Below are positions 7,058 through 61,412 of a stretch of 64,000 nt of DNA, in pieces (positions within the stretch are counted from its first letter, which is position 1; each line of letters begins with the position of its first letter). The notes under the pieces were generated by a model that worked only from the letters and a program-made list of their open reading frames with translations, ran no database searches and was not told the origin of the DNA. This stretch comes from Amia ocellicauda. Its lineage: Eukaryota > Chordata > Actinopteri > Amiiformes > Amiidae. The position numbers and the translations under genes were made by a program. Location: contig NC_089858.1 of NCBI RefSeq assembly GCF_036373705.1, positions 18,898,249 to 18,962,248 on the forward strand. Reading direction: 5' to 3'.

Positions 7058-10000
7058 TTACTCACTGAGGTCCATCTCTGTTAGCACACAGAAACAGGTG
7101 CGCTGAGTGATGTGGGTCAGGGCTCCTGTGCACAGAGGACAAACAGGAAGGACAAAATGTGGTCAAGTCACACTGTCACTGATAAAGATGAACACATCTA
7201 CATTGCTGAAGCAGAAGTTGAAGCTACATTGCATCAATGCACCCAGACATTCAGCATTGTAGTTTTCCCCATATATGGTTATTTTTTTTAACAAAATCTG
7301 GTGTTTCAAAACAGTTCTCATCATTATGGTATATGTGCAGAGAGAGTATACAGAGCTGACATTATGCAGTCATGGTTTCACTGCTGGGTTGCCATGTTGG
7401 GGATTTGTTCGGTGTTACACTCACGCAGCAGTTTGGTGATGCAGGGCGGCCGCTTGGACTCGGGCAGGTGGATGCCCAGGAAGTAGACGGGAACCCCGGA
7501 GAGGGCGATGGCAATGCCGATGAGGGAGTTGATGGTGTCGCTGTACAGGGGCACTACCACCAGGAACACAGTGCACAGGCAGAACACAATCGGGAACAGC
7601 AGGCTCAGCTGCACAGACGGGGGGAGAGTTTTTATGATTATTAAAGCAGAAGCATTTGTTCTCCCCTGTTTCCCCACATCGTAAAGACAGGCTGCTTAGG
7701 TTGAATGGCTACTCTGAATCTGTGTGTGTGCTGTGATGAACTGGCAGGCTGTACCCTGTCTTGCACCCTGTGTTTGCCAGGTTAGGCTCCGGCTCAGCCT
7801 GACCCTGCACTGGATGAATTCGCGTTATTGGAATCGGATGGATGGACTTTACTGCAGCGAAGTGTGCGCTTTATTCCCACATTCACCTTGAGCGGCCTGG
7901 GCCTGTCAGGCTCCTTCCAGCGCAGGTAGATCTGCCCAACAATTGACAACCCCATGAAGAACCAGTAGCTGAAGCTGTAGTAGTTGATGAGCTGGAAGAC
8001 GTCCTCTACGGCCAGGTATATCAGCGCCATGGCACACTGTGAAACCAGCACATTGTCAGAGAGAGGCACTGTCTCCTCTGCGCCACAAGGGGGAGACATG
8101 CTGCCAGCAAGGGAGGAAGATCTTTGTGTGGCTTTGAGATTTGTTTTAATTCACAGCAAGTGAGAGGTAACTCATTCACTTGTTGACAAATTCCATGACA
8201 ACACTGCTGGCCTTTTTATCATTCTCTTCCCTGTCCAGAGCTTAATTTATGTTATAGACAATTTTAAATATCAACAAGATCTGCAACCCAGTATTAAAAT
8301 CCTTAAATAAATCCTTATTGGGCGACAGTGCCTTACATTGAAGAGCAGTGCAGGGACAGGTGTAAATCGCTCAACGTGAATCATAGACAGCGCGTCAGGC
8401 AGGTGTCCCTCTCGAGAGCCCACGAAGAACAGTCTGCCAACACAGAGAAGAGAGAGCAGATTTTAATCAAGTTAGGAAATCAGGAAATACAGAAACCCCA
8501 GGACAGAGATTAAATCTGCAGCCTGAAACCCTCTCTGTGTTACTTTTGTGGAACGTCATTGTGCAATTAAGGAGATATCTGGGAGGGATGGGGGGGGGAC
8601 AAAAACACTTTAGGATATAAAAGTGACCTCTTCCTTAACCTAAAAACGAGACTCTTGAGAGCAGGCAAAGGTACAAACGTGAAAACCTTGAACTACAGTA
8701 GTATAGTTGGAGCAGATACAGTGATGGTGTTCATACATCAAATCTAAGGGGTTGTAAAGTACAATGCTGGAGAGCAGTCAGTCACCACACGTTTGACGGG
8801 GGTTGGAAAGGTGACAGGAAGGACAGCAAGCCAGCGTCAGAGCCGCTCACCTGGAGGCTGCGATGATGGAGGCATTGAGGCCGCCGTAGCAGGACAGAGC
8901 CACCGCAATAGGGATGGTCCAGCTCATCACCCCCAGAGTGTGATCAGCGAAAGTCTGCATGGAAAAGACAACATTCAGGCTAGCTCTCCTTACCCAGGGC
9001 TGCCACTTCGCCCACCCACTGTCAGAAAGCATTCCTTAAGAAATTGGGATGAGTCATCAGATGTGTAAGTCATCCGCTGCGCAACACAGGCACTGTATAC
9101 TGTTAACAATGACGACAACAAGAACAGCAACAAAAGAGAAAAAGAAAACCCCCCAGCAGGCCCCCCCCCGCCAACTCACCACAGCAACAGCATCACTGGC
9201 CAAGATGGCGCCCATGTCCAGCACAGCGTAGTAAGCCACATTGGTCAGGATGTAGATGACGGTCACAATTGGCATGGAGATAGCGATGGACAGTGGGAGA
9301 TTCCTGCAGAGAGATAGAGCGAGACACAAGCTCAGCCTCATTCTGTGTCCAGCAAAAGGGGTGGTGGGGGCTGTGTAACACTGTTGCCCTCTTTTCTGTC
9401 TTTTCAGACAGTACTTGTAATATTAGTCCTTTTAATCCCCGTTAGATAGCACTTCACAGCATTTTATCATGCTTCTTGTGTTGATTGATTTCCCCTTTGC
9501 TCCCTTTCCCGTAGCCCTTGACCCCGTAGCCCTGGATAAGGGCGTCTGCCAAGAAATAAAAAATAATAATAATAATAATAATAAAAATAATATTCGCTCT
9601 GTCCTTGTCTCCTACACCACAACACATTCAGAACTAGCTGAGAATGAGATCCCATTATGAATGCACTGGGATTTAAAGTCTAAAATACTTACTGAGTAAA
9701 CAACTCTGAAAACCCTCTCAATAAGTTCAGCTACAAATCAAGAAAGTACCTTACGTGCCAGAGAGCATGAGTGAACCATTTCCTCTCAATGCTGAGCATG
9801 GGAAATGTAAGCACTGACGCAGTACTGCGAGCAGCAGAGGTTAATGTGGCAGCCTGAGCGCCTTCCCACATTCAGTCTACAAGCAAGTGCAAACATCAAA
9901 GCATCAACTGCCTCTGCGTCACGAGTGCAACCCCTCGGGCATCTGATCCGCCAAAATAAGACAGAGGTGTAAAGCTTTTATTTTGTCAGCCTAGTTTTGC

Positions 10001-13000
10001 AGACCTTATAAATGAAAAGCATTAATTCCAGACCCACTTTGGGAGCAAGACAGCTAGTGCAGATAGACACCTATGTGTGTGTTTAGTGAGTGTGTGTCTG
10101 TGTATGAGTGTGTATTGATTGTGTGTGTGCGTGTGTGTGTGAGAGTGAGTTTTGTAAGTCGCCCTGGATAAGGGCGTCTGCTAATAAATAAATATTATTA
10201 TTATTATTATTATTATTAATGTTCAACAGTAACAAAAGTGAACACTGACTCCGGCCCTGACCTGCCTGACATCTATTTGAATATCGGAGTTGTTACAAAG
10301 ATGCTAATAATCCACCAAGGCAAGGCTGTAGATAAACAAAAACCAAATAACACCAAAATGTCACAATGTATAAAGTTTATCTCCTTTGAAAAACACCATA
10401 TTTTGCAATTAATGTTATAGTTTTCATGAGCTTTGGATGTGTCAGGGGTTTCAGCATTGTTAACTGAACAACATTTGTTCAACTGAATAAAAAAAAAAAA
10501 ATCAGAGCCCAAAGAAGAACCAAATGCTGGTCATGTGCAAATTAAGTTTGCAATGAGACTCTGTAGAAAAATTAAATAAATACATAAATAAAAACAACCA
10601 CAGACTAAAAAAAGAAAGTTAGCCAGTAAAAAAGGTCCAATTGGACCTCCTGGAAGGCATTGCAACACAGTTAAAACCCAGGAGCAGCTCTTAAAAAAGA
10701 TCAAGATACAGAAAACATTTGGTTTAAAAATATAATAAGAGTTCAGAAACCTGGAGAGAGAAGTCTAGTGAGCCCCTGATAACCTCCTTCTGTCAGGCCT
10801 GCTCACTGCACTTCCCCTGTTCACCACTTGAGGTCACCCTCATCACCTGAATACTAGCCAGTCTCCCTCTCCAAATTACCAATAATGCAATTAACATTCC
10901 TCATCACCATGTGCACTTGTCCCAACATCCCTCTGCACTCATTGTTTCTAACTCTCCCCACCAGCTCCACTGACTTCCCTCTGCCCTGCACTTAAACCCC
11001 TGTTTGCCCTTCAGTCACTGCTAAGTCTTGTCTTCTTCCCAGAGTCATTACTAAGCATTCCTACATTGCCTGTCTTTTAGTGTTTCTGACCTCTTGCTTG
11101 CTCCTTACGACCTCCCTTTTGGATCTCCATGTTTTTGCCTGTCTGCCCAATCGATTTACCTCTGGACTGTCTTTTATTACGATTATTGGATCTCCCCTTT
11201 GTACCTTTGCCAGCCTTCTGGTTGAGTTTGCACCTGAATCCACCCCTATTAGTCTCTGATACATTACACCTTCCTCTGGTACCTGGCACAGACAAGACCA
11301 AGCCTGGGAAGTCTAAACACACCGTCAGCTGAGTAGGTCTCTGAAATGACAAATCACTAAGGATGGAAACAACCTTAATAAAACTAGTGCCAAAAAGCAC
11401 AAACACCTGCTTCATGTTTTGTACTACAGAGCAAAAATAAAACAAAAATAGTATATGAATGATGTCTCACCAGACCGACTTACACTGTACTAAGTGTTGA
11501 CGTTCAGATGGGATGTGGACTCTGCTACAGGCTAATTCACCTGTTTACTCCCCTAGCTTTAGGGATTAATTAACCGGGCGTTAATTGCTGCGAACGCCAG
11601 CACGGCACCTTTCCTGCACGGCCCAGCCTACCTCTGGGGATTCTTGATCTCCTCGGTGAGGTAGTTCAGCGTATCCCAGCCGGAATAGGAGAAGAGGGCC
11701 GAGTACAGCGCCAGAGCGATGTCTCCAGGGTTCCAAGATGAGCCCTGGAAAGACGCCTCGAAGTGCGCCGTGTGACCTGAGCAGATGGATACATTTCAAT
11801 TCAATTCTAACATACATTCTTAGCAGTGAAGAGATGCTGAAACAGGAGTGATATGAGCAGAAAGTGGGGTTCTGGTTAATGAGCAGTGCAGGGGACACCT
11901 ACCCTGACACAGCTTGACAATCCCAGTGATGATGATGACGATCAGAGCCAGCACCTTGGCGTAGGTGAAAATGTCCTGCACTTTGGTACCCCACTTCACA
12001 TAGGCTGAATTAATGAAGGTCAGGAGACCTGTGCAAAGACAAGGAGGTCGGTCATTAGCACAGTCAGACAGTCAACACACATGGTTACTATGCAATGTAT
12101 ACAAACTATTTAAAGTGGAAAAAGTCACAGAAAATGTTAGGACTGGATAGGAGTATTACATTTCCCTTTAACAGAATTTCAAAACAGTAGTTCACTGGCA
12201 AAATAGATACATAGGAACATAAATAAATAAGCAAATATCCTAGTGATTGTAATTCCTTCTAACATATGCGTCTCACTGTGAAGGTGTAACAATACCACTA
12301 TCCTCTGCCCCCCAAGTGAAACAGTTTGTCTGGCACAAAGATGAAAGACTCTAATTGCAATGCCAGTGATTGTGTTATGACTACTGCACTAAGTGATTAC
12401 TGTTAACAGGTTATCTAGAGGGACACTGAAATGATGCTCCATGTGTCCCAGGCAGTCAGAAAGTGAGAGAAAATGACTTCTATTTCCCAGGATATGGACA
12501 GCAAAACCAAAATCTGAGCAGAGTTAAAAACAGCATGAGCAATTTCAAAATAGCTGCTGGGAGAATAGGAGTGTGGGAGTGTTTGGGCTCTGTAGAGGAA
12601 TGCGAGGCTGCAGTGCAGAAGCTGTCTCTGGGCAGCGCAGGACACGCAGTCAGTCCTAGGTCAAGGTAAGCCAGAAAAACAAGTCCTGTAAAGACTGCTC
12701 TGTGTGTATCCAGTGACATTGAGGAATGACAACCAGAAGCATAGAAGATCAATCCTAATTGCTAATGCCTCAGAACTATAGAAAATGGCTATTATTCCCC
12801 ACAAACTTTGCTTTTGTGACCAGGACTGTGATATTTTGAAATTTAACTATTTCCACTGAGAAAACTGGTGAATTTTCTATACTTTTGAGGCATAAGCAAT
12901 TAAGAAATAATGCTTGACACAGGACAGACTCACAGATGCATGCAGCGGCAATGAGGCGTAAGGCAGAGTAGGGCGGCTCGCAGGAGGGGAAGAGCGGCTG

Positions 13001-13472
13001 CACCAGGTAGTTGGCGAAGGTGATGGCGATGACAGCTTGGCTGGTGGGCTCAATGATGAGCAGGGAGGTCCACAGGCGGATGAAGGCGCTGAAGCCCCCA
13101 AAGGACTCCAGGATATAGGCGTAGCTGGCGCCCGACTTAGGGATGGTGGTGCCCAGCTCGGCGTAGCACAGCGCACCCACAACGGAGATCATGCCCCCGA
13201 TGACCCAGATCACGAGAGACAGGCCATAGGAGGCACTGTAGAACAGCACGCCCTTGGGGGATATGAAGATCCCTGAGCCGATCATGTTGCCCACGATCAG
13301 GCACACCCCGTTCAGCAGGGAGATTTCCTTCTTCAGCTGCATTGTCTCCTGGCCCCCCTGGCTGCCCTGTTTGTCCTCCCCAGATGCTGCCATGCTGCCA
13401 TTCGCCAGCCTGTTCTCTCCTGGACCCCTCTTCATACCTGTCCCTCCTGCTGTCCCCTCCAGGAAGCTGGGT
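7058..13472 (-). CDS. slc7a6: y+LAT2-type cationic/neutral amino-acid exchanger light chain (SLC7A6)
   Basis: Nine coding exons on the minus strand: 13472-12934 (ATG at 13435), 12028-11903, 11776-11632, 9303-9180, 8954-8851, 8433-8337, 8036-7887, 7608-7425 and 7125-7058 (stop TAA 7060-7058). Phases agree at every junction; the product is 499 aa against about 515 in human. The family pairs with the SLC3A2 heavy chain and exchanges cationic amino acids for neutral ones plus sodium at the basolateral membrane. The first TM region begins [15 protein letters not shown] and carries the substrate-binding IGSGIF motif. SGASYAYI and the extracellular Cys in FPSCEPPY, which in this family links to the heavy chain, are present, as is [14 protein letters not shown]7A7 is nearly as similar in sequence; the neighbouring slc7a6os decides for SLC7A6. 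Only the N-terminal 25 or so residues look poorly conserved. Introns hold a solo LTR and SINE pieces. Confidence 0.95.
7735..7850 (+). repeat. SINE tail fragment
   Basis: Sequence such as GTACCCTGTCTTGCACCCTG, then GGATGGATGG, matches the tail of the tRNA-derived SINE at 13896-14226, in the opposite orientation. It sits in an slc7a6 intron just past exon 7887-8036. The head is missing. Confidence 0.6.
9515..9592 (+). repeat. Interspersed repeat tail with (AAT)n
   Basis: Contains CCCTGGATAAGGGCGTCTGC followed by an A-rich tail and (AAT)n. The same tail recurs at 10155-10220 and, inverted, at 30561-30745, so it is the 3' end of a dispersed retroposon family in this genome. Confidence 0.65.
10080..10220 (+). 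repeat. (GT)-rich run and interspersed repeat tail with (TTA)n
   Basis: A GTGT/GAGT-rich run leads into TCGCCCTGGATAAGGGCGTC, then AATAAATAAAT and (TTA)n. The tail belongs to the same family as 9515-9592. It lies inside the slc7a6 intron that also holds the solo LTR. Confidence 0.65.
10791..11268. mobile_element. Solo LTR with intact 5-bp target duplication
   Basis: A 478-bp segment begins TGTCAGG and ends ATTACA, and is flanked on both sides by CCTTC (10786-10790 and 11269-11273). TG...CA ends with a 5-bp target-site duplication are the mark of an LTR retrotransposon; no internal gag/pol region is present, so this is a solo LTR left by recombination between two LTRs. The inside is pyrimidine-rich with no long ORF of note. 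It lies between coding exons 9180-9303 and 11632-11776 of slc7a6. Family assignment is not possible by eye; 5 bp fits Ty3-like elements among others. Confidence 0.75.
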
Positions 13473-13895
13473 CTGTGACCAGGAAGGAGAGCAGAGAAAG
13501 AACAAAAGCAGGTCAACCTCAGACCAAGGCCCAAATCTTTAATTTGCTATTATTACTTATTTGGCCGACGTCTCCTTTCGAAGGCAACTCGCCTAGAAAG
13601 CAAAAAGCATCTAGGATATCAACTGAAATGGAGGAGTAAAGCATTCCACACTGCATGATACATAATCAGGTCTGTCACTTTGCCCCTTCCAGCCTCTGCT
13701 TTCAAACCTTGTGTACTGACCCCCCAGTGCTGTTTTGCCTAATACTTCAGGCAATTCCCATTCCCTTTACTCCCAAATAATTAGTTACCTTCCTGCTAAT
13801 GGGTAACTCATCTATTGAATTGGTAAATTATTTTAAGTTATTCAAATTGGACCTTAATGGGCTATAGTCTACAGATGAAACACAGATTGTGCATT

Positions 13896-22234: not shown

Positions 22235-23132
22235 CACCGATCAGCCATAACATTATGACCACTGACAGGTGAAGTGAATAACACTGATAATCTCATTATC
22301 ATGGCACCTGTCAGTGGGTGGGATATATTAGGCAGCAAGTGAACATTTTGTCCTCAAAGGTGATGTATTAGAAGCAGGAAAAATGGGCAAGCGTAAGGAT
22401 CTGAGTGACTTTGACAAGGGCCAAATTATGATGGCTAGATGACTGGGTCAGAGCATCTCCAAAACTGCAGCTCTTGTGGGGTGTTCCCGGTCTGCAGTGG
22501 TCAGTACTTATCAAAAGTGGTCCAAGGAAGGAAAAGCGGTGAACCGGCGACAGGGTCATGGGCGGCCAAGGCTCATTGATGCACGTGGGGAGCGAAGGCT
22601 GGCCCGTGTGGTCCGATCCAACAGACGAGCTACTGTAGCTCAAAATGCTGAACAAGTTAATGCTGGTGCTGATAGAAAGGTGTCAGAACACACAGTGCAT
22701 CGCAGTTTGTTGCGTATGGGGCTGCGTAGCCGCAGACCAGTCAGGGTGCCCATGCTGAGCCCTGTCCACTGCCGAAAGCGCCTACAATGGGCACGTGAGC
22801 ATCAGAACTTGACCACGGAGCAATGGAAGAAGGTGGCCTGGTCTGATGAATCACAAGTTCAAGGTGTTGACTTGGCCTCCAAATTCCCCAGATCTCAATC
22901 CAATAGAGCATCTGTGGGATGTGCTGGACAAACAAGTCCAATCCATGGAGGCCCCACCTCACAACTTACAGGATTTAAAGGATCTGCTGCTAACGTCTTG
23001 GTGCCAGATACCACAGCACACCTTCAGAGGTCTAGTGGAGTCCATGCCTCGACGGGTCAGGGCTGTTTTGGTGGCAAAAGGGGGACCTACACAATATTAG
23101 GCAGGTGGTCATAATGTTATGGCTGATCGGTG
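22235..23132 (+). mobile_element. Internally deleted Tc1-like transposon, family A
   Basis: Terminal inverted repeats of about 26 bp (CACCGATCAGCCATAACATT...) are flanked by TA (22233-22234 and 23133-23134). Inside, a plus-strand transposase relic begins near 22384 (MGKRKDLSDFDKG), has an in-frame stop near 22440, keeps paired helix-turn-helix sequence and the first catalytic Asp region (VAWSDES), then jumps by an internal deletion near 22858 to the C-terminal part with [12 protein letters not shown]. The middle of the DDE domain, with the second Asp, is missing. Non-autonomous, 898 bp. Confidence 0.9.
22440..23100 (+). pseudogene. Broken Tc1 transposase of family A
   Basis: Two ORF remnants in different frames (22476-22850 for the DNA-binding part; 22846-23100 for the C-terminal part) belong to one Tc1-type DDE transposase of which an internal block is gone. 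An upstream stop cuts off the start. It cannot make active enzyme. Confidence 0.85.
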
Positions 23133-26326: not shown

Positions 26327-29300
26327 TCAATAGGAGAGCTGGGAGGGGCTGCGGCGGGCGCTCGTGGACACCAGACCGAGGGCCATGGCAACTAACCCGG
26401 CCGCCCCCTCCCCCAGACACACGCAGGTGTCCAGCAGGCAGCGTGTGCGAGCCACCAGCGTCTGGGCGGCGGTGATGAGCTCGTAGGCCTCCCGTGTCAG
26501 GGCCTGTCGGGAGCGCAGCACATCCAGGATGTAGTTCAGCCGGCCCTCTGTCATCCCTCGCAAGATGGACTCCCGGTAGTCCTGCAGGATCTGGCAGCAG
26601 CTCTTCCCTGGGAGGGAGTCTGAGGGAGGCAGAGGGAGAGCCAAGAAGGGGTTAAAAGTGGTCACAGCAGTCAGATCTCTCTTCCTTGTTGTTGATTGTG
26701 CAGAGCCAAGGAGATCAATTTATTAATTCCTGGAGATGGTGATCGATTTTCATTATGCGTTCGTCTGGTTAATCATTTTGTATAATACATAAACAATTAT
26801 TCACCTCAGAGGACTCCCATCTAACTACCAGGGATATCAGACAACGCAGAGCCAGTTTAGTAAGTGTTTATAATCCTAACTTCCTGGCTATTTATTATGG
26901 ACAGTATATGTCTTCCAGGAAGAGCCTGATCATAAAACAGTAACAAACAGCAAAACGAAGGGTGCCCCACCTTTCACTGAGATCATATTTATGTTTGGGA
27001 CACAACCTTTTTCTCTTTCTTGACTGTATCCAAATATTTAAATTATATATAATTGCATTTAGTATTCCAATAATAAAATGTTATTATTGGTTTGAGAATA
27101 AATTTTGATGACTCAATTTCCTAAAAAAAGATATACAAACAAAACCACAAAACATTTAAAAAAAATTCTCTGCAAGGGAGGAAATGTTTCTTGAAAGCAA
27201 AGATAAACAGAGGCTGTAGACATGAGAGATGCGGGAGACAGAGAGACAGGGACCGTCTTACAGGAAACCACACAGATGGAAACCAGAGACATGCTTACTT
27301 TGCGTAACACTTAAAAAAATGGACAAATGTAAATATAGTTAGTATACCTTTTTGTGGCTTAAATAAACCAGTTTTATTAATATTACTATTGTTGTTTAAA
27401 ACTTAATTGATATATTAACTACCAGTTGTAATTATACTGAACACTATTATGCTGAATGTAAAAAAATTATATATGAGTGCACGTTTTATATCTACTGCAC
27501 ATAATTATTATATCTGTGATTAACTTTAAAAACATGTGAAACAAAGCATATTGTATTGGGATTACAACTTGTTTATATTCAAAATTCATGTCCATGACTC
27601 AATACATATGAAGAAACACAGTTTAAAATAGTTTAAATGGGAGAATAGGTTCTCTGAATGTAGACTAAATTATATTTCCAAAACAAATCCAGACAGACAC
27701 TTTTCTTACAGGAAGAGGGACGACACGCAAAAAAACGCTGAAATTATGCCTAAAGCAAAATGAAGCAGAACTGACAGAGCATCTTACCCAAGGAGCAGTG
27801 CTGGGGTTGGTCACAGGAGACACTTCGGTGCAGTCGGGCAGTGCCAGTGGGTGGAGAGGGTGGAGGAGGAGGTGGGCTATACCGCAAATTACCCCTGTTC
27901 AAACTACTTGGCCTGCTTGGTGATACCCGAGCGACTCGACATGCTGGCTGCAGGGGAGAAGCGCAGGGTGGGCTCCAGGAGTCTAAAAAGACAAAGGATT
28001 ACGGGGGGCGGATTAGATCAGACCAATCAAAAAAACCTGCCACAATATGGTTACAAAGACAAGGCCATGCTGGCCTAAATCTCAGTCTTTATTAAATGTG
28101 GATATTAGAAAACAGATGCTAGAATTGTAGTGGACACTTAAAGCACTGTAGATCCATTTAAATGTTTGCAAATTAATAAAAAAACACTATATCTATCAAA
28201 CTATCTATGGATCTTTCTATATACACCTATACATACATACATACATACATACATACAAACATTACCTATTCTACAAGCAGTCTGGAGGGCACCGGGAACT
28301 GGCAGGGGGGGTGAAGGGCCGTTGGGTTTTCGGGAAGAGGTCCGGGCAGGATTGGGTCTTTCTGGTACGGAGGTCAACATCTGCACCGTCTCCAAGCGAA
28401 CAGACTTGGTGCCAGCACTTTTGGACTCACAGCAGCAGCCAGACAGCTGGGAAAGAAAACACCATTCTGTTCACATCCAGGAGAGGGAAAAGGTAATAAC
28501 ACAGGATCTGACAGCAACCTCCTGAATGGGCAAGAGGAAGTCAGCTGGCTGTACTGTTTGACGTAGGATCACTGCAGTTCAGTTTAACATGCCACGTCTT
28601 CACCACAAATCATAAAATGTGTGTCTCTTTCTGAGAAGGTAGTTTCAGGGTTGGGTTCACTCTCACAGACAACACGCACAGAGGTCAGAATCCTTTGTGC
28701 ACACAGTTCCTCTGGGATTACCCAGTCTTGTGTTAATAACTGCATTCAAACAGTACACCAAGGTCAAGCTGCAGCCATAGTTACAGATACTTTAACATGG
28801 CTGTTCTGTAATCCAATTCCAGCACAATGGCTGCTGTGATTCTAACCGCAGACGGGAACAATTTCCTGGTACAGCGATGATGTGTGAACTTAAGCAACAC
28901 AAATAGGATTGTGTGGGTGAGTTTTGTGCACTCCCAGCTCTTTCCTATAAGAGAAGCCCCCCCCTTTGTTCACATTATAATGCACATATTCTGTGTTTTG
29001 TTGCTCTGCTGTTGTTAGAGAACCTATTTTCTGAAACCTTATCCTTAATCTGTAAAAGAGGCGTACAATGACTCCCTCACCTCCAGGTTGTTCACCTCCA
29101 CATGCAGGTCCTGAATCAACTGCTCTTTACTGTACAAGAGCACCCTCTCCTGGAGGAGAGACAGAACACAGATTCATTAGCACACAGTTTACGCACCACT
29201 GCTCAGGTTACTTAAACTGGAACAATAGCCTGAACCCTAAACTAGCCACCACCAAAATGTCATGTTAGGCCCACACAAATCTACAATCAATTAAGGTAAA

Positions 29301-30559
29301 TCAGTGCAAAATCTACCCTAAATTTAACAAAAGCCTAAATCTACTTGGGACTCTAACCCTAACCCAGAACACAAGTTTATCCTAAAATGATCACAATAGA
29401 TGTACAACATGTAGAACAAGATTAAGATCAAGATTCTTTATTGCCACTAACCATGGTTGGAGGTATTTGGGTTTGGTACAGCTATGAATACAAAGACATT
29501 AAACAAAAAACTTCCCTTCATACATACCCATCATAAATCACCATCATTAACCCTGTAGGCCTAGTACCAAGCTAGAATGTACTGGGTTAATTACTGTCTT
29601 GGAATCCATCCCCAGGGCAGTGTGGGTAACTAAATTAATCTTAACTTGACCAAACATAAAATGTATTCAGAAAGGTGTGCTGGGCTACCTTATTCTCCTT
29701 CAGCTGGACAGCAGCCCTGGCCACTGCGTCTGGGTCAACTGTCTCCAAGACTCTCCGTAACGCCAGCACACAGTCTGGGGGGAGAGAAGTGAGGCTTAAT
29801 TTAATTCATTTGACCCTTGATCAAGTCACCATCACACTTGGATTCTTCTTTACCATTGTGTTTGGCTACTGCAGTGGATTTACAGCCTAGCTCTCTCATC
29901 CGTATTGGTTTAATGTAGCTCAGAGTCTGTAACAATGATATATAATGGTCTGTAGGAAGGCCGTAGGCTGACAGTATAAAGTACAGTATGATTTTCAGAG
30001 ATAACCTTATCTGAGTAACCACAATACAAACATGTATATCATCGTCTGTGTTGATATCAGAAAGAATGCCGTACTGTGATAAATCCTCAGGGGCCGGTTG
30101 CATAAACATAGACTAAGTCTTTGTCTTAGTATGATAATAAGTCCTACTAACGATAGACACTCTGTTGCATAAAAGTCTTTCACTGGTCTTAGACTGGTCT
30201 TAGACTGGTCTTAGACTGGTTTTACTTAGTCAATTACGCATTGCATCCTGGGAATTTTAAGACACCTGAAGAAAAAAAAAACATTTATCTATGCACATTT
30301 ATCTAAAACAGCGATCACAGTTAACTGATAATCTATGCTAGTTATTGAAATATAATGTAGAGAAATGTATCAATTGTTCGCTATTTTCGGAAACTTTCAT
30401 TAACGCATTCAAACACAAGGCATGGGATAAAATGAAGAAAAAGTTAACACCGTCAAACTGTTGTGTGGGTGCTATGAGGTCTGTAAAGATGGGAGAAAGG
30501 ATTAAATAATATGCTAATTTAAGAGGAAACATCCGCGTACTAAACGCAAAGCAGCGCAG

Positions 30560-30606
<47 letters not shown>

Positions 30607-33600
30607 GTATTCCTTTGCCATGCGCCCTTATCCAGGGCGAATTAGGATAGCAAATAGCAAAACAAAAGTGCTAAATACAGCACACAATTACTAATCGGTC
30701 ATAATACAAATTAAAGTTTAGAAATTACAGAAGTGCAGGTAAAATATACAGTTGGTTATTGAAGTATATCGGGAGGGGTCTCGATGTTTGTGGGGATTGC
30801 AGGGGGCGGGACAGGGGGTGTGAGAGCTGGCGGGAGGCTCCGACCGGTCAGCGTCAGTGTCGCAATAGACTCAGGCAGCACTTTCAATGGAAAGATAGAC
30901 TTAAGTTCCAAGTTAACCTGGGGGTGAGGAGGCTGACTTTTCAGTCTAAGTCTTAGTCAGTCTTAATTTTTATACAACTGACTAACTTGCATAGACTAGT
31001 CTAACTGTCAAATTAAGACCAGTCTAATGGTTTAGACCAGTCTTATATAGTTTTATGCAACCGGCCAAAGAATAGAAAAGAATTGGGAGAATTGAAGGAA
31101 CTGAACTCGGTCTAAAGCAGACAGAGATCGGGTTGCTTTGGCGCAGGGAAACATAGCTCTGGCAATTTCACTTCCACTGAAATAGCTTTTGGCTTAATGA
31201 ATCTTAGAAGTCCTGGGTATGCAATGCCCAGCCCTGGTGTAGAGAACAGCTGACTTTTGCAGTGTGCGAATCCCAGGGAGACAGTTTACCTGATGCCTGA
31301 GGGCGCGTGTGAGGCTCATAGCTCCAGCAGTGGACGATGAGCTGGGAGAGGACGGGAGCCTGGGTTACGGCACGTGGCACCAGCTCCTCCCCGATGCCCG
31401 GTCCCACACCACTCTGCACCGACAGCAGCAGAACCTGAGGCTGAGAGATATCTGCACCAAAAAATCACAGAAACACAGGGTTCACATTGTTTCTCCCCGA
31501 CCACTGCATTCAGGCTCGTAAAAAAATTAAAAATAGAAATGTCCCTGGCTCACCTCAACACTGTGCTGAGTGCACTAAAAAATCTGCTTCTCGTTTCAAT
31601 TCTCGCTCTTACACTGCACAGAGGCTGTCCCGTAAACTGAAGCAATGCACTGGCATGTAACTCAAACCCAAAGCCTTATGAACACATTAGGATGTGACAC
31701 TGTGTAGGATGTGAAACTGGTCCTCTCTGGACCATAGTCATAAAACTCATGACGGTGATCTACCACTCCTTTTTTAAATGCTGTGGAACAAACACCCAAC
31801 GGTATTTTTACATATACATTTATATTTGTTATGCAACAAAAGGATATTAATGACCTTTCTAAAATTAAATAAGCACCCTGAAAGTTTTATGGGACTCTTC
31901 CACACTTCTTTGTGCTTTATTTCCTCATAAAAAAGCTGGAGTCAAGTTGAGGATGGTAAAGGTTTAATGAATATGGCCCTCTAGGACTCACTGCATATTT
32001 TAAAGCTTGAGACAGCCTTTTACAGGTTAAATGGAGTCCCAGAACTGAATCAAGCAATGAAATGCACTGCCACTGAGAAGAGACCTTGCCACCTCGGAAA
32101 GACAGGTGTCTTAGCGAGGGAAGAGAGCTCTAACAAGGAGGGGAGATGCAGAGCGCTGATCTCTGTGCGCACTGGCTTCTTCCCCTTCCCACAAGGCTGC
32201 TCAGCAGAGCAAGGTTAAGCAATCTGATGTCCTTAGCATCATGCACTGTGCTAAAGGGTAAAGGTGCTCCGATACTGACTCATAGTTCACAATAAGGTCA
32301 CTCATAGTCATCGTGTTATAACAAGACATTATAACAAAGTTGGGCAATAATTCACAATGACTCCTTCAACTGTGCTAAAGGTTACTTGTTCATAAAAGCA
32401 AAAATATATATATATTATCCTGATGCACAGAAAAAAAAAAAAAGCAAAATGTCCTACCTTCATATGGTGGTCTTCTGTTGAGGGTCTCCCACAAGAGCAT
32501 GGCAAAACTGCAGGAGAAAGAGACAGTATTTTCTCTCAACATGTTAGTTGTTTTTTTGTTCCTATTGAACATTCAGGGTCTGTGGCTTTGCGAATTCCCC
32601 GCAGTGTGCATCTGCTTGGGTATCCCTGTTGCTGCAACTCGACATCCTTGCGGGCCTTACGAGGGGCACCACAGAACCTACACCTTCTGCTTTCACAGTG
32701 AAGCAAGCTCCTTAAAAGTCAGCTCCATTTGAGGAACTGTGAATCTTGGGAAATCTTACACCATTGCGCTTGACAAGATAAGAGTAGTCTGATATTATCT
32801 GTGAAGTGTTAAAATGCTTCTTCAGGCACGTAACTGTTGCATTTTCCCTTCTTTTTTCTGCAAAAAAGCAGAACTCCTTCAAATCTACCCTTATACCGCT
32901 TTTGAAATTACACTAGATGTACTGAAATAACCCTCAACATTATTTCTTGGTCTTATTTGTTTCAATTTTAAATGACAATGAAACAGATTTTAATTTACTT
33001 TGGACAAACATCCCCATTGCATTACCATGTAATGCATGCTTGCACAGAAACACTCACCTGTATATATCTCCCTCTGTCGAAGGTTTCTCCCCACAAAGGG
33101 TCTCTGGGGACAAATACACTAGGTCCCTAATGCAAAGCCCATTACAATCAGCAGGGACAGACTTTAGGTTCCATTTCTTCCACTGAGACAGGCCAAAGTC
33201 ACACACCTGAAAGCCACACACAAGAAATGTGTGAAATTCTAGTTATTTTCACAGACTCACTTAAATTAGAGTTTCTTATCTTTAAAAATGTCTCACTGAA
33301 CAGGCAAGTCAGACTACCTGGATGCACGCTGTCTTGTCATCTCACTAGCAGGAAATCAATAAATCATTAATTAAATAAATACAATGAATAATCATGTTTT
33401 CATTATTGCTGTATATAACATCACATCCCATGGCTTTCAATAAACATTGCAATTACACTAAAATAAACCCAAATTGCCTCAGGGGTGTTGAATGAAACGG
33501 AGGAAACGATCTCCTCCAGCCGAGTATCTGCAACAATCCTCTCCCTTACAAAAAAGGCCTCAGCACAGGGAGGCAAAGGGAGCCCTCGTGTTTCCCCTCC

Positions 33601-36116
33601 AGGCACGGTTACCTTGGCACGGTACTGGGCATCGAGCAGCACATTGGCAGGCTTTAGGGCCTGATGGGCAAGGAGCAGGCTGTGCAGGTGGGACAGTCCT
33701 TCCGCCACATCTTGCATGATACGGAGGAGCAGGGTACAGGGCACCTCTTGGTGCTGTTGCCGCTGAAAACACAATGGGAAAGGCACCTTGAGCTGTCTTC
33801 AGCACACAATATAATTTAAGTTTTAAAGGTTCAAGTAAAAGAAAGAAAAGCACACACACCCCAAAACTCCCATGCTTTTAGCCAGACGAGGATGTCCTAG
33901 ACTCCACAGAGAAAACTGAGCCTTTTCTTACCTTTATAAGAACACATACAAGGTGTGCATTGTGATATGATGTACATTGTTTGTCCATTGGAAAATAGGC
34001 CTACATATGTTAAAATAAAGATCCATTGACTTTCAGAGGTGATTTTAACCCCCCAACAAAAATGCAACAAAATGATTTACTTCTGTACAATAAAGGGGTT
34101 TACTTTAAATTTTAAATGTCACCTGGGAGTATTTCCCTATTGTGAGGAGAGATTTCGTGATTTTACCCCCTTTCCTGTGGCTTTCCTTTGTTACAGCATC
34201 TTCTCCATCAAAACATAGAAAAGGGATCAGCTTTTCCAATACGTGTAGAGGATGTTGGGATTTCCAAAACCTTTATATCTATACATTTAATTCTAATGTC
34301 AGGTACACTACCAGAATATTTTTCTTTATATTCCCAGTAAATGTCCCTGTTTATTTTAAACTTAAACATGACTAATAATAATAATAACTATTATTATAAA
34401 TCATTATTATTATTATTATTATTATAATACGTTTTAGAACACCCCCCTTTTTCTAGTTTTTATTGAAATCTTCGCAGTTTAAAGTCTCAATGTACTATGA
34501 ACAAATAGAACTATTGGAGAAAAAAAGAAATGATCGAATCATTTTGTTTAACAAAATTGAACCCCTTAAGCTGACAAACCCCTTTGGTACCCTTAAAAGG
34601 GCACCAAATCCGTGTGCTTCTCTTTAATCCCATGTGTACTCTTCACTGTTGTCTTGTTTGCCAAGTGTTTGGTATCCCATGAAAGCTGAGACTCTCAAAT
34701 GATTTCACAACTTTGGTATATAGATAAAGATGGCACTGTCCCTCTGATAATACCCTACCTCATACAGAAGAGAGTGAAGAGAGCCCTCGTCCATCCAGTC
34801 TGACACCAGGCCTAGGAGCAGATGAGACCTGTACACACCCAGGGGAACCAGGACCCTCTCTGACTGAATCCGTCTGACCTTCGCAATCTCCTTCAGGCTC
34901 TCACTCCACTGGCTGAGGACAGAGAGGAACCCAACACAAATTAAGCATTCTGCCAAGCGAGCTCCAACGCATTGTCTTATCACCCCCAAAGTGAAAGCAA
35001 GACACAGGATTTCCCGCTGTCTGACTTGCCACTTTCCCCATAGAAGAGGTTACACCATGTGGGAGACTGTTGCCACTACACACAGGTAATTATTAATCAG
35101 TGAAAGTGTAAACACAGCTCATACTGGCGAGCTGAATGATAACAATTCACAGCTGAATGGGGGGGGTGGTTATGAGGTGTTCTATTTTGTATGCATTTAT
35201 TCATCCATTAATAGATTAATCTAAAGTGAATCAATATTGAACTTGGGTAGATTCCATATCTGATTTCTGGCATCAGTCCTGGGTTGGGGACACTGCTGTT
35301 GTACCCTTGGGCATGCTACTATATCTAGGGTGGTCCAGTAAAACCCCAAATAAATTTGTAATTGTATGTACAAAAATTATGTGTTATATTGTAAGTTGCC
35401 AAGGATAGGAATGTTGGGTAAGAAATATTATAACAAAACCTGACCTCTTTGAATGTAATAGGGCAAAGCAACTGTAAATGATTACAGGTTGAAATCTAGC
35501 ATAATTATGGAAATACAAATAATCTATTGTTGTTTTTCTTTTTAAAATGTTGGAATTCTGGAGCAAAAAAATACAATAAAAATGGATACCCCAGGACAAG
35601 ACTTGACTTGGCTTACACACTTCACAACATAGCAAACAGCAGCTCTGATCACTATGCTAACTCTTGGCAGCGGGGCCAAGCCAGTTTAGAGATCAAGAGC
35701 AGGTTGTTTCAAAATAAAGAATGTAAGAAACAGGTAACTCTCTGTTGTGGGTGCAACATACCCACACAGTTTGCTACATGTGTGCCAAGGTAACGCCCTT
35801 GAGCTACAAAATGAGACAGAAAAGAGTAACAAAGCTTGTCATGGTTCACGCAGTGGATGGAAATGACAGCTTCCTTTCTTCCGCAGGCATACCAAAGCAG
35901 AAAGACTGAAAGGCAACGCAGAAGGTCCCTCCTTAGGCCTATCTCACCTCTCCGCAGTTCTTTGGATGGACAGCACTTTCACAGCCACCTGGCACCCCCC
36001 TGCTCTGCTATAGCTGCCTCTGAGACAGGAGCCTGCACTGGTGCGAGTCAGAACCATCTTCATTACATCATGCTCAGGGATTGTAGGCAGGGGGCTAGGC
36101 TGGGCCATTCTCATAT
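26327..36116 (-). CDS. RIPK2-like protein: predicted pseudokinase domain plus C-terminal CARD
   Basis: Eleven coding exons on the minus strand: 36116-35948 (ATG 36114 or 36108), 34912-34759, 33762-33613, 33206-33058, 32507-32458, 31451-31290, 29774-29689, 29149-29081, 28446-28266, 27982-27788 and 26619-26327 (stop TGA). All phases agree; 551 aa against 540 in human RIPK2. RIPK2 links NOD1/NOD2 to NF-kB. Start LPTIP, lysine VAVK (K46), an alpha-C Glu (E64), DFG (D160) and SPE are present. The catalytic loop reads H-Q-A at 140-142 where RIPK2 has H-H-D, and the glycine loop is eroded. A linker with a short coil-like exon (29149-29081) and a proline-rich exon (27982-27788) leads to a CARD of about 90 residues with MTEGRLNYILDVL and EAYELI, as in RIPK2. 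Human RIPK2 is on 8q21, not beside SLC7A6, so a paralogue is likelier than the orthologue. Confidence 0.88.
28229..28260. repeat. (ATAC)n microsatellite
   Basis: A run of CATA units immediately after the splice donor of the RIPK2-like exon 28446-28266 (donor at 28265-28260). Length change here would alter the sequence just inside the intron. Confidence 0.8.
29428..29480. repeat. Short interspersed repeat fragment
   Basis: AGATCAAGATTCTTTATTGC is a frequent 3'-end signature of fish retroposons. It lies in an intron of the RIPK2-like gene; only a fragment is recognisable. Confidence 0.35.
30094..31066. mobile_element. Non-autonomous DNA element with GGCCGGTTGCATAAA terminal inverted repeats
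   Basis: GGCCGGTTGCATAAA at 30094 is matched by its near complement TTTTATGCAACCGGCC ending 31066. Sub-terminal regions are also complementary in an imperfect way (CTAAGTCTT / AAGTCTTAG). Four copies of an 11-bp unit TTAGACTGGTC sit at about 30184-30225. No transposase is encoded. A (TTA)n retroposon tail is nested at 30561-30745. It lies in the RIPK2-like intron between exons 31451-31290 and 29774-29689. Confidence 0.7.
30561..30745 (-). repeat. (TTA)n and retroposon tail nested in the DNA element
   Basis: (TTA)n at 30561-30606 followed by ATGCGCCCTTATCCAGGGCG, the reverse complement of the tail found at 9515-9592 and 10155-10220. It interrupts the element at 30094-31066, so it inserted later. 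Confidence 0.65.
35255..35425 (+). repeat. SINE tail fragment
   Basis: Sequence with CCCTTGGGCATGCTACTATA, GGTGGTCCAGTAAAACCC and TTGTAAGTTGCCAAGGATAG matches a common fish SINE tail. It sits in the first coding intron of the RIPK2-like gene. Confidence 0.5.
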
Positions 36117-37187
36117 CTAGGGCACTTGACGGGTGGAGAAAAGCAGGTTTCCCTCGATTACAAAAACAGATAGATGGTTTTAATTTGTGCTAATCACTTA
36201 ACATCTTACACTGCAGAAAGCACAAAAGTTAATCTTGCCTGGTCTTACCAGCCTGGACTCTGAGCTGCTAAGGAGCCAAATTAGCAGATTTTAGACATGG
36301 TTCTATTAAAAGTGTGATTCAGTGTTTATCAACAAAACAAAATAGATACAATAAAATCGTAAAAGATGCAAAAGTATTGGAAGAATAGTATTGGAAAAGT
36401 TTAGTTAGGTAGTTTATGTGCATTATTTCCTCAAAAGAAAAGCTCCACTAATTCTAATGGTACCCAGCACACTCCCTCAGATCTGCAAATGCCCCCTGAA
36501 TGTCTTATACTGAACATTTAGCTCTTCTACTACCACATAATTTATTTCACACCCTACCAATCCTGAAAAAATATTTTTTTAAACCATAAAAGTTGACTAT
36601 TCCTTCATAAACACTCACACATTCTTTATCAACTATATATAAAATTAGATATTGGTAAATTCTTCATAAATGCACCAACATCTGAAATAGTCTGGTGTTT
36701 CTGCATTCAAAAGGGTAAAACTGCAAGACGAAAAACACCCCAAATAAATAAATAATCGCCTACAAATGACTAAAGCCATGTGTCTTAGGCTGGCATTTCC
36801 CGGCTGTGTGCTGCAGCGCTGCGATGGGTGGACGCGGAAAGTCCCTGCTACTAGAAACGATCACGAGTATGTGGCACACACCACCATCCACAGCACAGCC
36901 GCAAAACATGATCTTCTTCTTATTATTATTACTACTACTTCCGACAAAGCTTTAAACACCACAGAAATAGATCGCATATTGTAATGCAACTGCCTAAAGA
37001 CTTCTATCAAGACATTAAACCCTCTTCAATATGTTCAAGTTAAGGAGTGTGCACGATAAACGATGTTACGTAATAAATCATTTTATATATCGCATTAAAT
37101 AAAATAACATCAATGCAAACCTTCCTTTCCCTATTCAAATACGGCTATTTATTGCATTAACTGAAGGCCACCGAGCTCCTGTCTTAC

Positions 37188-37350
37188 CGAGGTCAGCCTG
37201 CCAGTCTCCGCGCTGCTGGGCTCTGCGGCTCTGCGCGGCTCCGCGGCTAGGACGTGCGTGCGTGACGCGCTGTGTTTACCTGCTCTCTGATTGGCTGCTG
37301 CCGCCACAGAATTCCCCTGCTCAACCCCGGGGCAGGCGCAGGCGCAGTGA
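37188..37350 (-). promoter_or_regulatory. GC-rich first exon and promoter of the RIPK2-like gene
   Basis: A CpG-rich block (GCGGCTCTGCGCGGCTCCGC) ends on the minus strand at a strong donor, GTAAGAC at 37187-37181. The first coding exon has a good acceptor at 36118-36117 two bases before its ATG, so this is the likely non-coding first exon (37188 to roughly 37270) with the promoter just beyond. The exact start site is unknown. Confidence 0.5.
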
Positions 37351-37430
37351 AGTCATGCTGTCATGTTGATAGATTGCATGGGGTTGCGTCCTGGTTTCGT
37401 TTGTCAATTCTAGTTCTAATTCTGTTGTTT

Positions 37431-37466
37431 TATTATATTATATTATATTATATTATATTATATTAT
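37431..37466. repeat. (TATTA)n microsatellite
   Basis: Pentanucleotide run of about seven units upstream of the RIPK2-like promoter. Confidence 0.85.
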
Positions 37467-41419: not shown

Positions 41420-42484
41420 CAGTGAGGGAAAAAAGTATTTGATCCCCTGCTGATTTTGTACGTTTGCCCACTGACAAAGAAATGATCAGTCTATAATTTT
41501 AATGGTAGGTGTATTTTAACAGTGAGAGACAGAATAACAACAAAAAAATCCAGAAAAACGCATTTCAATAAAGTTAAAAATTGATTTGCATGTTAATGAG
41601 GGAAATAAGTATTTGACCCCTTCGACTTAGTACTTGGTGGCAAAACCCTTGTTGGCAATCACAGAGGTCAGACGTTTCTTGTAGTTGGCCACCAGGTTTG
41701 CACACATCTCAGGAGGGATTTTGTCCCACTCCTCTTTGCAGATCCTCTCCAAGTCATTTAGGTTTCGAGGCTGACGTTTGGCAACTTGAACCTTCAGCTC
41801 CCTCCACAGATTTTCTATGGGATTAAGGTGTGGAGACTGGCAAGGCCACTCCAGGACCTTAATGTGCTTCTTCTTGAGCCACTCCTTTGTTGCCTTGGCT
41901 GTGTGTTTTGGGTCATTGTCATGCTGGAATACCCATCCACGACCCATTTTCAATGCCCTGGCTGAGGGAAGAAGGTTCTCACCCAAGATTTGACGGCACA
42001 TGACCCCGTCCATCGTCCCTTTGATGCGGTGCAGTTGTCCTGTCCCCCCAAAAGCATAATGTTTCCACCTCCATGTTTGACGGTGGGGATGGTGTTCTTG
42101 GGGTCATTCCTCCTCCTCCAAACATGGCGAGTTGAATTGATGCCAAAGAGCTCGATTTTGGTCTCATCTGACCACAACACTTTCACTCAGTTCTCCTCTG
42201 AATCATTCAGATGTTGGCAAACTTCAGACGGGCCTGTACATGTGCTTTCTTGAGCAGGGGAGCCTTGCGGGCGCTGCAGGATTTCAGTCCTTCACGGCGT
42301 AGTGTGTTACCAATTGTTTTCTTGGTGACTATGGTCCCAGCTGCCTTGAGATCATTAACAAGATCCTCCCGTGTAGTTCTGGGCTGATTCCTCACCTACC
42401 ATTAAAATGATAGACTGATCATTTCTTTGTCAGTGGGCAAACGTACAAAATCAGCAGGGGATCAAATACTTTTTTCCCTCACTG
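41420..42484 (-). mobile_element. Tc1-like transposon, family B, copy 1, with N-terminal deletion
   Basis: Ends CAGTGAGGGAAAAAAGTATT and its complement, flanked by TA (41418-41419, 42485-42486). The transposase relic runs on the minus strand (42395-41627, broken into frames). Compared with the copy at 60121, about 500 bp covering the start of the gene and the 5' palindrome are missing, so the right inverted repeat directly follows NQPRTT-coding sequence. Confidence 0.92.
41627..42395 (-). pseudogene. Broken Tc1 transposase of family B, copy 1
   Basis: ORF pieces at 42395-42207, 42186-41950 and 42013-41627 follow the Tc1 order: part of the DNA-binding region, LWSDETKIELFG (first catalytic Asp), then [13 protein letters not shown] and the C-terminus. 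Frameshifts lie near 42200 and 42040; the N-terminal helix-turn-helix is missing. Confidence 0.9.
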
Positions 42485-44651: not shown

Positions 44652-47600
44652 CTATTGTGTCTGCGACACTAAGTGTGCGTTGGCCCCAGTCTGATTCCCA
44701 CGCAAAGAGTATCGCTCTGATCCAGACCCGGAGAACCCACTCTGGTTGGAGGAGGAGCGGCGCTGGAAAAGGTAGAACCGCAGGCAAAGGAAAAACCCTG
44801 CAAGAAAAAGAGGAGTTTGACCTTCTCCAAAAACTGCACATCTTTTCATTCTTCATTAAAGTCAAAGGCACATACATAGTCTTTCAAGTTTTTCAGACTT
44901 TCTCAAAAGCTACATTTGCTCCAAACGTTTTGTGTTAAGCTACAATATTAATTACGTTAAGCTGAATGGCACACTGGGACACTTTTCTATTCATTCCTCA
45001 GTAATGTGAATTTTGTTTAGTCATGTAGAAATGTACAGTACATTACAAGATTGACATGCTTGTCTTCAGCAGGAGAGTCCTGCTCTACAGTGTACAGGGT
45101 GTGATGTAATGTATGCTGACAGTCCAGAGCTGCACGTACCCTGGAGGGAGTTAACGATGCAGAACAAGAACTGAACAGGCACGGTCAAGGGTCCGAAGTT
45201 AAAGAAGGCCAGGCCCCATGTGATCCCGAACAAGCAGTTCATTCCCCAGATGCTGATGAGCATAATGTGCTTATCCTTCCAGGGCCCTCTGTCCTGAATA
45301 TTGATGACCAAGCACACCAGCATGGCCAAATTGAAAAAGAAGATTACTGAGAAGACGCCGATGTTTGTAATGTAGTGCACCAGGTCTTCTGTAATCCAGC
45401 ACCTGATCAACAGCGAGAACAAACCATGAGTGCATTACACTGACAGACAGACAGCCTGCACCAACACATTCCAGAGACCACTGACAGGGAAACTGCCTCC
45501 CCCAGTGCAGACTGAGAAACCTTTCTATTCCTTTCTACTGGGTTTCCACATCCTGCAGAGAGCAAAGCTCAGTTGCACTCCCATGGCGAGATTGTCACAA
45601 GCCAATTTTCATCGGGCAGGACACACCCTGTTCTTTGGTCACATGAACTTCACCACAAGCCTGTAATAGCTCCCCACTGTTACTACACAAACCAGAGTGA
45701 ACTCCAGCACACAAATGAAGACTTGCTCTAACAGATGCTTTTTTCTGTGCAGTGCAGATACAGTCTTTCAAGATAGTTTTCATTCACGTGCTGCTTTACT
45801 TACATTGAGGCCTCCGTGTTTTCCTCCGATATGATGCGGAGCTCTCCGTAGAAATTACCACTCAATAAAACCACGGCCACCACAATTAGCGGTAAGCCTA
45901 GGAAACACAATCCAAATGTATTTATGTGCAACACACCACCACAATGCATACTACCAACAAATTAGAAATTATGCTTTTTTGGACCCAAAAAACCTAAACA
46001 GATATCCCTGACCACTTCTAGAATTACTAGAATATATGGGAAGGCCCATTCAATATTTATTGTCAACACACACCCCCTTTCAAAACCACCACTGCTACAC
46101 TTACCATAGCCCAAAAGGCAGAGTTTTGCAATGTAGTGTGGTATATAGGATGCCATCGGTTTGTACACCAGCCTGAAGGCATTGAAGGCCTCATTCCCCA
46201 TCCACATGAAGGAGCAGAGCAATGAGTAATGCAGTAGGACAGCCAAAAACCTGCACAGGTGTGGCTCCTTCAGAGAGGCCAGAATCCCATTGAAGAAGAA
46301 GGAGAGGCTGAGCAGAAGCAGGGCCACGGTGAGGTTACAATGCACAGGGGTGCACTCCGAGCTGGAATTTCTTCTGCTGTAAGGAAAGCACTTTGGATTA
46401 GACTGATGGAAACTGCTCCACCCACGACTCTGAGGGAGATGGGCGTTTGAGTTCTGCAGTCTCAATCAATAAGCACCTTCACTAGATAGAACTACTTAGT
46501 AATATTATTATTAACACTGACAAAGGCAGAACTGGAAATATACAGTATATACTAGAAGCAACCAAACAAAAGGCCTAGGCCAAACCTTAGCTAGGTTGCG
46601 AAGGGGCTGCATTTGCCATTTTCTGGGAACAGTAGAAAATGAAAAGGTACCGTTGTCGTGTGAAGAGCACCAGGAGGCAGATGCAGCTGATGGCAGAGAG
46701 CATACAGCCCAGAGACGTGATGAAAGTCAAGGCTGTCAGGTATCGAACAGGTTTCTGCTCCAGTTGCTGTAAATAAGCAAATGAAACGTAATGAAACTAA
46801 ATGTCCGTCCGGCTTTCTGACGCTTTTTAAAGAAGAATAAACAAATCAGTTACTTTCAAACAAGGTTTTCGATATGTAATGTTTAGTGTAATGTTTATTA
46901 ACATTAAGGTTTCGATGTTGGTTAGTTAATGAGTTATTGTTCCACAAAATTATCTAAGACCATACAGACCAGCAGAACTGCGAAGTAGGTGAGGTGATTG
47001 CAAAGACATTCAGTTTCCTCTTCTGATACATCATTCGTTTTACATCCAGAATTATTCCAAGACATTCCTGTTATCACAGCAATACATATTTGTGTCACAT
47101 TACTATTTTTATTATTAATATGAATTACATCTTTATCAAATACAGTGAGGGAAAAAAGTATTTGATCCCCTGTTGATTTTGTACGTTTGCCCACTGACAA
47201 AGAAATGATCAGTCTATAAATTTAATGGTAGGTGTATTTTAACAGTGAGGGACAGAATAACAACAAAAAAATCCAGAAAAACACATTTCAAAAAAAGTTA
47301 TAAATTGATTTGCATGTTAATGAGGAAAATAAGTATTTGACCCCTTCGACTTAGTACTTGGTGGCAAAACCCTTGTTGGCAATCACAGAGGTCAGACGTT
47401 TCTTGTAGTTGGCCACCAGGTTTGCACACATCTCAGGAGGGATTTTGTCCCACTCCTCTTTGGAGATCCTCTCCAAGTCATTAAGGTTTCGAGGTTGACG
47501 TTTGGCAACTCGAACCTTCAGCTCCCTCCACAGATTTTCTATGGGATTAAGGTCTGGAGACTGGCTAGGCCACTCCAGGACCTTAATGTGCTTCTTCTTG

Positions 47601-61405: not shown

Positions 61406-61412
61406 AGGTGTC

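Follow-up and report, generated by a model that had tools for sequence, protein, structure and literature searches.

RIPK2 is a drug target, and the shares of catalysis and scaffolding in its function are debated. The DNA described here (C9:18898249-18962248 of a 988-Mb vertebrate assembly, probably from a fish; we call this whole 64,000-nt stretch the window) contains a RIPK2-like gene with a CARD, in which the catalytic aspartate of the kinase domain has been replaced. The locus raises the question of whether such a gene still works and, if it does, what its product could contribute to NOD signalling. From a splice-consistent model, we observed a gene on the minus strand with 11 coding exons (36114-26327), whose coding sequence of 1656 nt including the stop encodes 551 amino acids. 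All 10/10 introns have GT-AG borders and there are 0 internal stops, which reproduces the intact 551-aa ORF over eleven exons that an initial annotation of this DNA had proposed. The 11-exon structure is a prediction from DNA, that is, a transcript-independent model. The coding exons below come from this model, combined with the alignment for exons 1, 2 and 4 and with the CARD searches for exon 11.

35948..36114, minus strand: coding exon 1, starting MRMAQ..., with the altered glycine loop T25-S-A-G28-S-C30 and the VAVK lysine K46
34759..34912, minus strand: coding exon 2, with the alpha-C glutamate E64 and the serine gatekeeper S93; 154 nt, the size also found in own RIPK2 (the RIPK2 gene of the same genome)
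33613..33762, minus strand: coding exon 3, with the catalytic loop H140-Q141-A142-L143-K144-P145-A146-N147, in which the HRD Asp has become Ala
33058..33206, minus strand: coding exon 4, with D160-F161-G162, the activation segment, the SPE motif and E202 at the position of RIPK2 K209
32458..32507, minus strand: coding exon 5; 50 nt, the size in own RIPK2
31290..31451, minus strand: coding exon 6; 162 nt, the size in own RIPK2
29689..29774, minus strand: coding exon 7, end of the kinase domain; 86 nt, the size in own RIPK2
29081..29149, minus strand: coding exon 8, linker
28266..28446, minus strand: coding exon 9, linker
27788..27982, minus strand: coding exon 10, linker, proline-rich
26327..26619, minus strand: coding exon 11, CARD and C-terminus, stop TGA

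The coordinates first given for the catalytic-loop exon were exact, with minus as the coding strand. This exon 3 is 150 nt long, lies between the acceptor ...ttttcag and the donor gtaacc..., and encodes ...LLLAHQALKPANVLLDAQYRAK. Its codons are CAT for H140 (33666-33664), CAG for Q141 and GCC for A142 (33660-33658), confirming that the codon at the Asp position specifies Ala. On the plus strand, the translated frame of 33613-33762 contains a stop. GCC is one base from GAC, and the apparent HQA could on that account be an assembly error or the product of a mis-modelled exon. We find this barely credible, because the splice sites of exon 3 match the consensus, no stop is present and the catalytic residues next to the site line up correctly; moreover, additional independent errors would be needed to explain the altered glycine loop and the Gln in the second place of HRD.

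Alignment to human and own RIPK2 placed A142 at the HRD aspartate, D146, and Q141 at the second HRD residue, H145. In the glycine loop, human G27, which we equate with glycine two of the generic GxGxxG, is replaced by T25, whereas G30 is kept as G28; the beta-2 valine V32 is replaced by C30. The loop had been described as lacking its first glycine; the loss is real, but RIPK2 has two glycines in this loop, of which the first (G27) is the one missing, and V32 is gone as well. Kept relative to RIPK2 (human numbering) are G30, A45, K47, E66, H144, K148, N151, L153, the DFG motif and the alpha-F aspartate D211. In the numbering of the candidate, the kept catalytic residues are K46, E64, K144, N147 and D160-F-G, and LSPE stands at the place of human MPPE; all the residues listed as retained by the initial annotation (Lys46, Glu64, Asp160, Asn147 and SPE) are thus present. 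The gatekeeper is a serine, S93. At the positions of the human activation-loop serines S174, S176, S178 and S180, in a loosely aligned loop, Ser is found at 0/4 in the candidate and at 2/4 in own RIPK2.

As judged from these residues, phosphotransfer by the candidate is unlikely. ATP binding is plausible because the candidate retains the Lys, Glu, Asn and DFG, but the absence of the loop Gly and of the beta-2 Val would weaken it. Some pseudokinases, e.g. HER3, keep weak autophosphorylation, and the retention of the VAVK Lys, the alpha-C Glu, the catalytic-loop Lys and Asn and the DFG would similarly allow for a weak or unusual kinase activity that survives the loss of the HRD Asp. However, other residues now stand at the positions of the catalytic Asp, the loop glycine G27 and the beta-2 Val, and we regard residual activity as very improbable.

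The family membership of the product is clear from profile and pairwise searches. Pfam gave PK_Tyr_Ser-Thr (118.1 bits), Pkinase (112.1 bits) and CARD PF00619 (27.0 bits against a cut-off of 23.9). In phmmer comparisons with PDB chains, human RIPK2 was the best match of the kinase domain (2.3e-45), followed by the plant kinase CTR1 (6.1e-29), RIPK1 (2.3e-26), RIPK4 (1.3e-24) and RIPK3 (1.9e-24), and it was also the best match of the CARD (1.9e-9), followed by caspase-1 (5.9e-5). We rejected RIPK1, RIPK3 or RIPK4 identity, as their scores are below that of RIPK2 in this comparison, and the 10 introns exclude a processed pseudogene. Viral contigs scanned with exon 4 yielded no relative. AlphaFold2 run on the CARD exon as a single sequence returned a poor model (mean pLDDT 62.3, pTM 0.41).

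A genome search with the CARD family listed, from up to 70 scored candidates, at least 47 matches, which included the exon of the candidate (2.8e-4) and an exon on C2 (1.6e-14) whose translation is plainly a RIPK2 CARD. The 47 listed were all compared with RIPK2 CARDs on both strands. Among the matches listed, the human RIPK2 CARD scored 118.0 bits with the C2 exon and 49.3 with the candidate, and the CARDs of own RIPK2 and the candidate were mutual best non-self matches (53.5 bits both ways). Own RIPK2 lies at C2:34714021+; seven kinase exons upstream of the CARD exon give LLHHDLKTQN and a GGFGTV loop, and our model of this gene covers kinase exons 1-7 and the CARD exon. Therefore, the Asp change is specific to the RIPK2B-candidate copy. 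The candidate is a CARD-bearing paralogue, as had been supposed, and not RIPK2 proper carrying a mutation, since RIPK2 itself sits elsewhere in the genome and has a normal catalytic loop. The kinase domain of own RIPK2 is identical to that of human RIPK2 at 202/307 positions (65.8%), whereas the candidate reaches 97/300 (32.3%) with human RIPK2 and 87/305 (28.5%) with own RIPK2. Identity to the human CARD is 55/70 for own RIPK2 and 28/70 for the candidate.

Traces of the duplication are preserved in the two genes and around them. Intron phases are identical for exons 1-7 (0,2,0,0,2,1,1), and exon sizes are equal at 4/7 (exons 2, 5, 6 and 7: 154, 50, 162 and 86 nt). Downstream of the candidate lies the following gene.

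7381..13546, minus strand: y+LAT-type amino-acid transporter (SLC7A6/7-like; PF13520), extent by eye from ORFs

A y+LAT-type counterpart (~34739914-34748828) is located on C2 downstream of own RIPK2, on the same strand as it, and Y+L transporters are the best PDB matches of both (1 and 2 for the gene in the window). An MT-type MMP gene is found ~270 kb from own RIPK2 (C2:34431216-34441015; best match MMP16, 1e-100) and another ~94 kb from the candidate (C9:18826959-18831036; MMP14 2e-87, MMP16 5.5e-83). We read the latter as MMP15, which was absent from the matches shown. The MMP gene is on the SLC7A side of the candidate but on the opposite side of own RIPK2, and gene order is kept only in part. 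In human, RIPK2 is presumably near MMP16 on 8q21, with SLC7A6, ADGRG1 and MMP15 on 16q, an arrangement that fits two rounds of vertebrate genome duplication. RIPK2 and the candidate thus look like whole-genome-duplication copies, because they have in common the intron phases, the order and orientation of the y+LAT neighbour and a nearby MT-MMP gene.

A second RIPK2 gene is not new, since two RIPK2 genes were described in lamprey, zebrafish and anole, the second copy being 34.5%, 27.2% and 35.0% identical to human RIPK2, respectively, over the whole protein (XP_032816536.1, XP_005166455.1 and XP_008112157.1 in the same order; Lv 2022, PMC9573974), and the name RIPK2B was given to a paralogue that is present in many vertebrates, is lost in therian mammals and retains the kinase domain and the CARD (Fay 2025, PMC12119088). 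The candidate likewise is a RIPK2 paralogue with an N-terminal kinase, a C-terminal CARD and low identity to human RIPK2. Its family, its low identity and its locus together make the gene very probably RIPK2B, which is likely to be the sister of RIPK2 from a whole-genome duplication. The portions of Lv 2022 and Fay 2025 consulted report no loss of the HRD Asp, the XIAP contacts or the filament type II residues for RIPK2B, and a search of portions of open-licence main texts found no description of RIPK2B as a pseudokinase. As far as these literature searches show, the gene class is known, and the pseudokinase state together with the changed scaffold surfaces is apparently undescribed.

The loss of catalysis has to be weighed against what catalysis does in RIPK2. 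Human RIPK2 D146N and K47R restore NOD2 signalling, in which XIAP binding matters (Hrdinka 2018, PMC6120666), and catalysis is therefore dispensable; this bears out the initial statement that RIPK2 signals largely as a scaffold. These engineered proteins resemble the candidate in missing a catalytic residue, but their XIAP and filament surfaces are unchanged, whereas in the candidate those positions are changed too. Mutation of R36, R41, K209, E279, S282 or K285 cut or abolished binding of XIAP BIR2, in the case of R36 and R41 possibly via dimerisation (Lethier 2023, PMC10485824). At these positions the candidate has S34, G40, E202, T272, Q275 and D278, i.e. 0/6 are kept (P = 0.09 given 97/300 identity), which as a real signal is suggestive only. 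Own RIPK2 keeps 4/6 (R41, K209, S282 and K285).

We compared the CARD using the contact lists of Pellegrini 2018 (PMC6168553) and Gong 2018 (PMC6255760). Type I contacts are kept at 8/13 positions (P = 0.07), type III contacts at 4/8 (P = 0.39), NOD2-contact residues at 4/5 (P = 0.075), and type II contacts at 3/11, a count no lower than expected (P = 0.29 for so few). Statistically, these comparisons of surfaces are weak. A type I core of R444, E445, N457, D461, Y474, R488 and D492 is kept entirely (7/7, P = 0.0009), this set having been picked after seeing the result. C455 and M470, type II residues taken as specific to the homo-filament, are C and M in own RIPK2 but R and T in the candidate; human RIPK2 mutated at C455 or M470 binds NOD2, while filaments and signalling are spoiled (Pellegrini 2018, PMC6168553). 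The candidate thus has in common with human and own RIPK2 the domain order, an LPTIP-like N-terminus, the QLKxxK kinase end and the CARD type I core, and differs from both at the HRD Asp, G27, V32, the activation-loop Ser positions, K209 and the other XIAP contacts, C455 and M470. The CARD exon of the candidate also encodes 1 Lys and 10 Arg, compared with 8 Lys in the own RIPK2 CARD segment (Fisher P = 0.036). We rejected selection against ubiquitination as the reading of this depletion, because at a GC3 of 0.87 Arg is favoured in place of Lys, and base composition may explain the difference.

Could the Asp have been lost recently, in this species alone, from a gene whose constraint is relaxed and which is heading for loss? 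The fast divergence of the kinase domain (32.3% against 65.8% identity to human RIPK2) would agree with this, as would the loss of RIPK2B in therian mammals (Fay 2025, PMC12119088). However, 551 codons and 10 introns are free of stops, frameshifts and broken splice sites; 189/4959 possible single-base changes in this frame would give a stop, none is present, and the 20 splice sites are intact. The separate changes at G27, V32, HRD, K209 and K285 suggest, besides, that the non-catalytic state is long-standing. A further counter-argument comes from the region upstream of the first coding exon.

37081..37450, minus strand: CpG-rich stretch, probable promoter, from the CpG scan
37187/37188, minus strand: GTAAG donor of a probable non-coding 5' exon, from the splice motif

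The CpG-rich stretch and the donor at ~37187 suggest a promoter with a first exon that does not code for protein, the CpG threshold being one that 108/6375 sliding windows of the 64 kb pass, at several places. The start of an SLC7A6OS-like gene is among the sites in the window that pass it. The unbroken frame, the splice sites and the CpG-rich stretch argue against decay, and we consider relaxed constraint improbable. The 11-exon gene probably encodes a functional CARD pseudokinase belonging to the RIPK2B group.

Our favoured reading, to which we assign a probability of roughly 0.4, is that the candidate is a non-catalytic modulator, which would join NOD/RIPK2 CARD assemblies without extending the filament or bringing XIAP, and would damp signalling. 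This reading builds on the observed sequence changes, the intact frame and the coexistence with RIPK2. With the HRD Asp changed to Ala and the glycine loop altered, the candidate would transfer no phosphate, and its CARD would enter NOD/RIPK2 CARD assemblies by way of the polar type I contacts, which are conserved, and some of the type III ones. It would neither extend the filament nor recruit XIAP as RIPK2 does, because the XIAP-BIR2 contact and filament-specific type II residues are absent, and in consequence it might cap, dilute or tune RIPK2 signalling, most likely damping it. Since human RIPK2 works without kinase activity, the loss of catalysis alone does not make a brake. The initial proposal of a paralogue that joins or blocks NOD-type CARD assemblies without catalysis holds as regards the absent HRD Asp, but it overlooked the changed XIAP-contact and type II residues, which move the expected role away from scaffold and closer to modulator. 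The candidate could have acquired compensating surfaces by co-evolution.

The main rival, which we hold to be possible but unlikely, is that RIPK2B is a catalysis-free positive scaffold, forming CARD assemblies of its own, using another ubiquitin ligase or adaptor and activating NF-kB in parallel to RIPK2. Such a role is in line with the signalling of kinase-dead human RIPK2 (Hrdinka 2018, PMC6120666), with NF-kB activation by human RIPK1-4 (Fay 2025, PMC12119088) and with the kept CARD type I core, and the diverged linker and C-terminus could carry new motifs. It agrees poorly with the 0/6 XIAP contacts, which include the charge reversals K209 to E and K285 to D, with the replacement of C455 and M470, and with the single Lys of the CARD exon against 8 in own RIPK2, though the GC3 of this exon favours Arg.

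Returning to the damping modulator, a wider form of this reading would make RIPK2B a conserved vertebrate CARD-pseudokinase, produced by whole-genome duplication as a dedicated NOD-RIPK2 brake that docks by type I contacts and makes no filament, XIAP contact or phosphorylation, so that the therian loss would have removed a natural RIPK2 antagonist. We consider this extension rather improbable. In MLKL and other RIPK-pathway pseudokinases, too, a pseudokinase domain is joined to a domain with an immune effector or adaptor role. MLKL is like the candidate in this design, but belongs to another clade and damages membranes via a four-helix bundle, not a CARD.

A natural paralogue that would lack catalysis, and in which the XIAP and filament surfaces are changed, would be a ready-made separation-of-function variant of RIPK2, and the little-studied RIPK2B gains a testable role. 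If it is inhibitory, non-therian vertebrates would possess a brake on RIPK2 that has gone from therian mammals, and the reading of NOD signalling would change in fish and other vertebrates keeping RIPK2B.

Among the matches listed, the next-highest score with human RIPK2 after own RIPK2 and the candidate was that of a CARD on C19 (42.7 bits), which may be an additional, distant relative.

On the 5′ side of the RIPK2B-like gene, the CpG scan marked this stretch:

37081-37450, CpG-rich stretch

We observed a GTAAG splice donor at ~37187 inside it, and an acceptor motif, CTTTCTGCAG, ending at ~36211, upstream of coding exon 1. Judged from sequence, the stretch together with this donor and acceptor is likely to be the promoter and a non-coding 5′ exon of the gene.

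At the other end, the CARD exon (26327-26619, -) encodes one Lys and 10 Arg, while the CARD segment of the genome's own RIPK2 has eight and seven, respectively; GC3 of the exon is 0.87. Either base composition or avoidance of ubiquitination could underlie this Lys/Arg bias, the two being inseparable here.

Among the 47 matches listed by the genome-wide CARD search, at least nine CARD exons were clustered within 32 kb on contig C20 (C20:8068162-8100129); these may represent a family of immune genes with CARDs that has expanded. A match on contig C19 (C19:28270538-28270744, -; locus L006) ranked third with the human RIPK2 CARD query (42.7 bits), and may be a NOD or caspase CARD.

The SLC7A6OS/SLC7A6 pair is flanked on either side by adhesion-GPCR-like genes; their ADGRG type and the SLC7A6OS-like gene were recognized by eye:

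2030-4191 (+), SLC7A6OS-like gene
45069-52382 (-), ADGRG-type adhesion-GPCR-like gene(s)
C9:18878838-18894313 (+), ADGRG-type adhesion-GPCR-like gene(s)

In Pfam, one of three adhesion-GPCR-like window exons matched GPS (PF01825); the SLC7A6OS-like gene, queried with its first exon only, gave no match.

Tc1/mariner-like transposase copies were recognized by eye at four places:

22443-23111 (+)
41630-42250, mainly (-)
47354-48374 (-)
60356-61479 (-)

Similar copies, also seen by eye, sit inside own RIPK2 on contig C2 and adjoin it. The same contig carries, in locus L022:

C2:34650001-34652688, long ORFs

By eye only, these resemble a DNA polymerase of family B, such as a large mobile element would encode.
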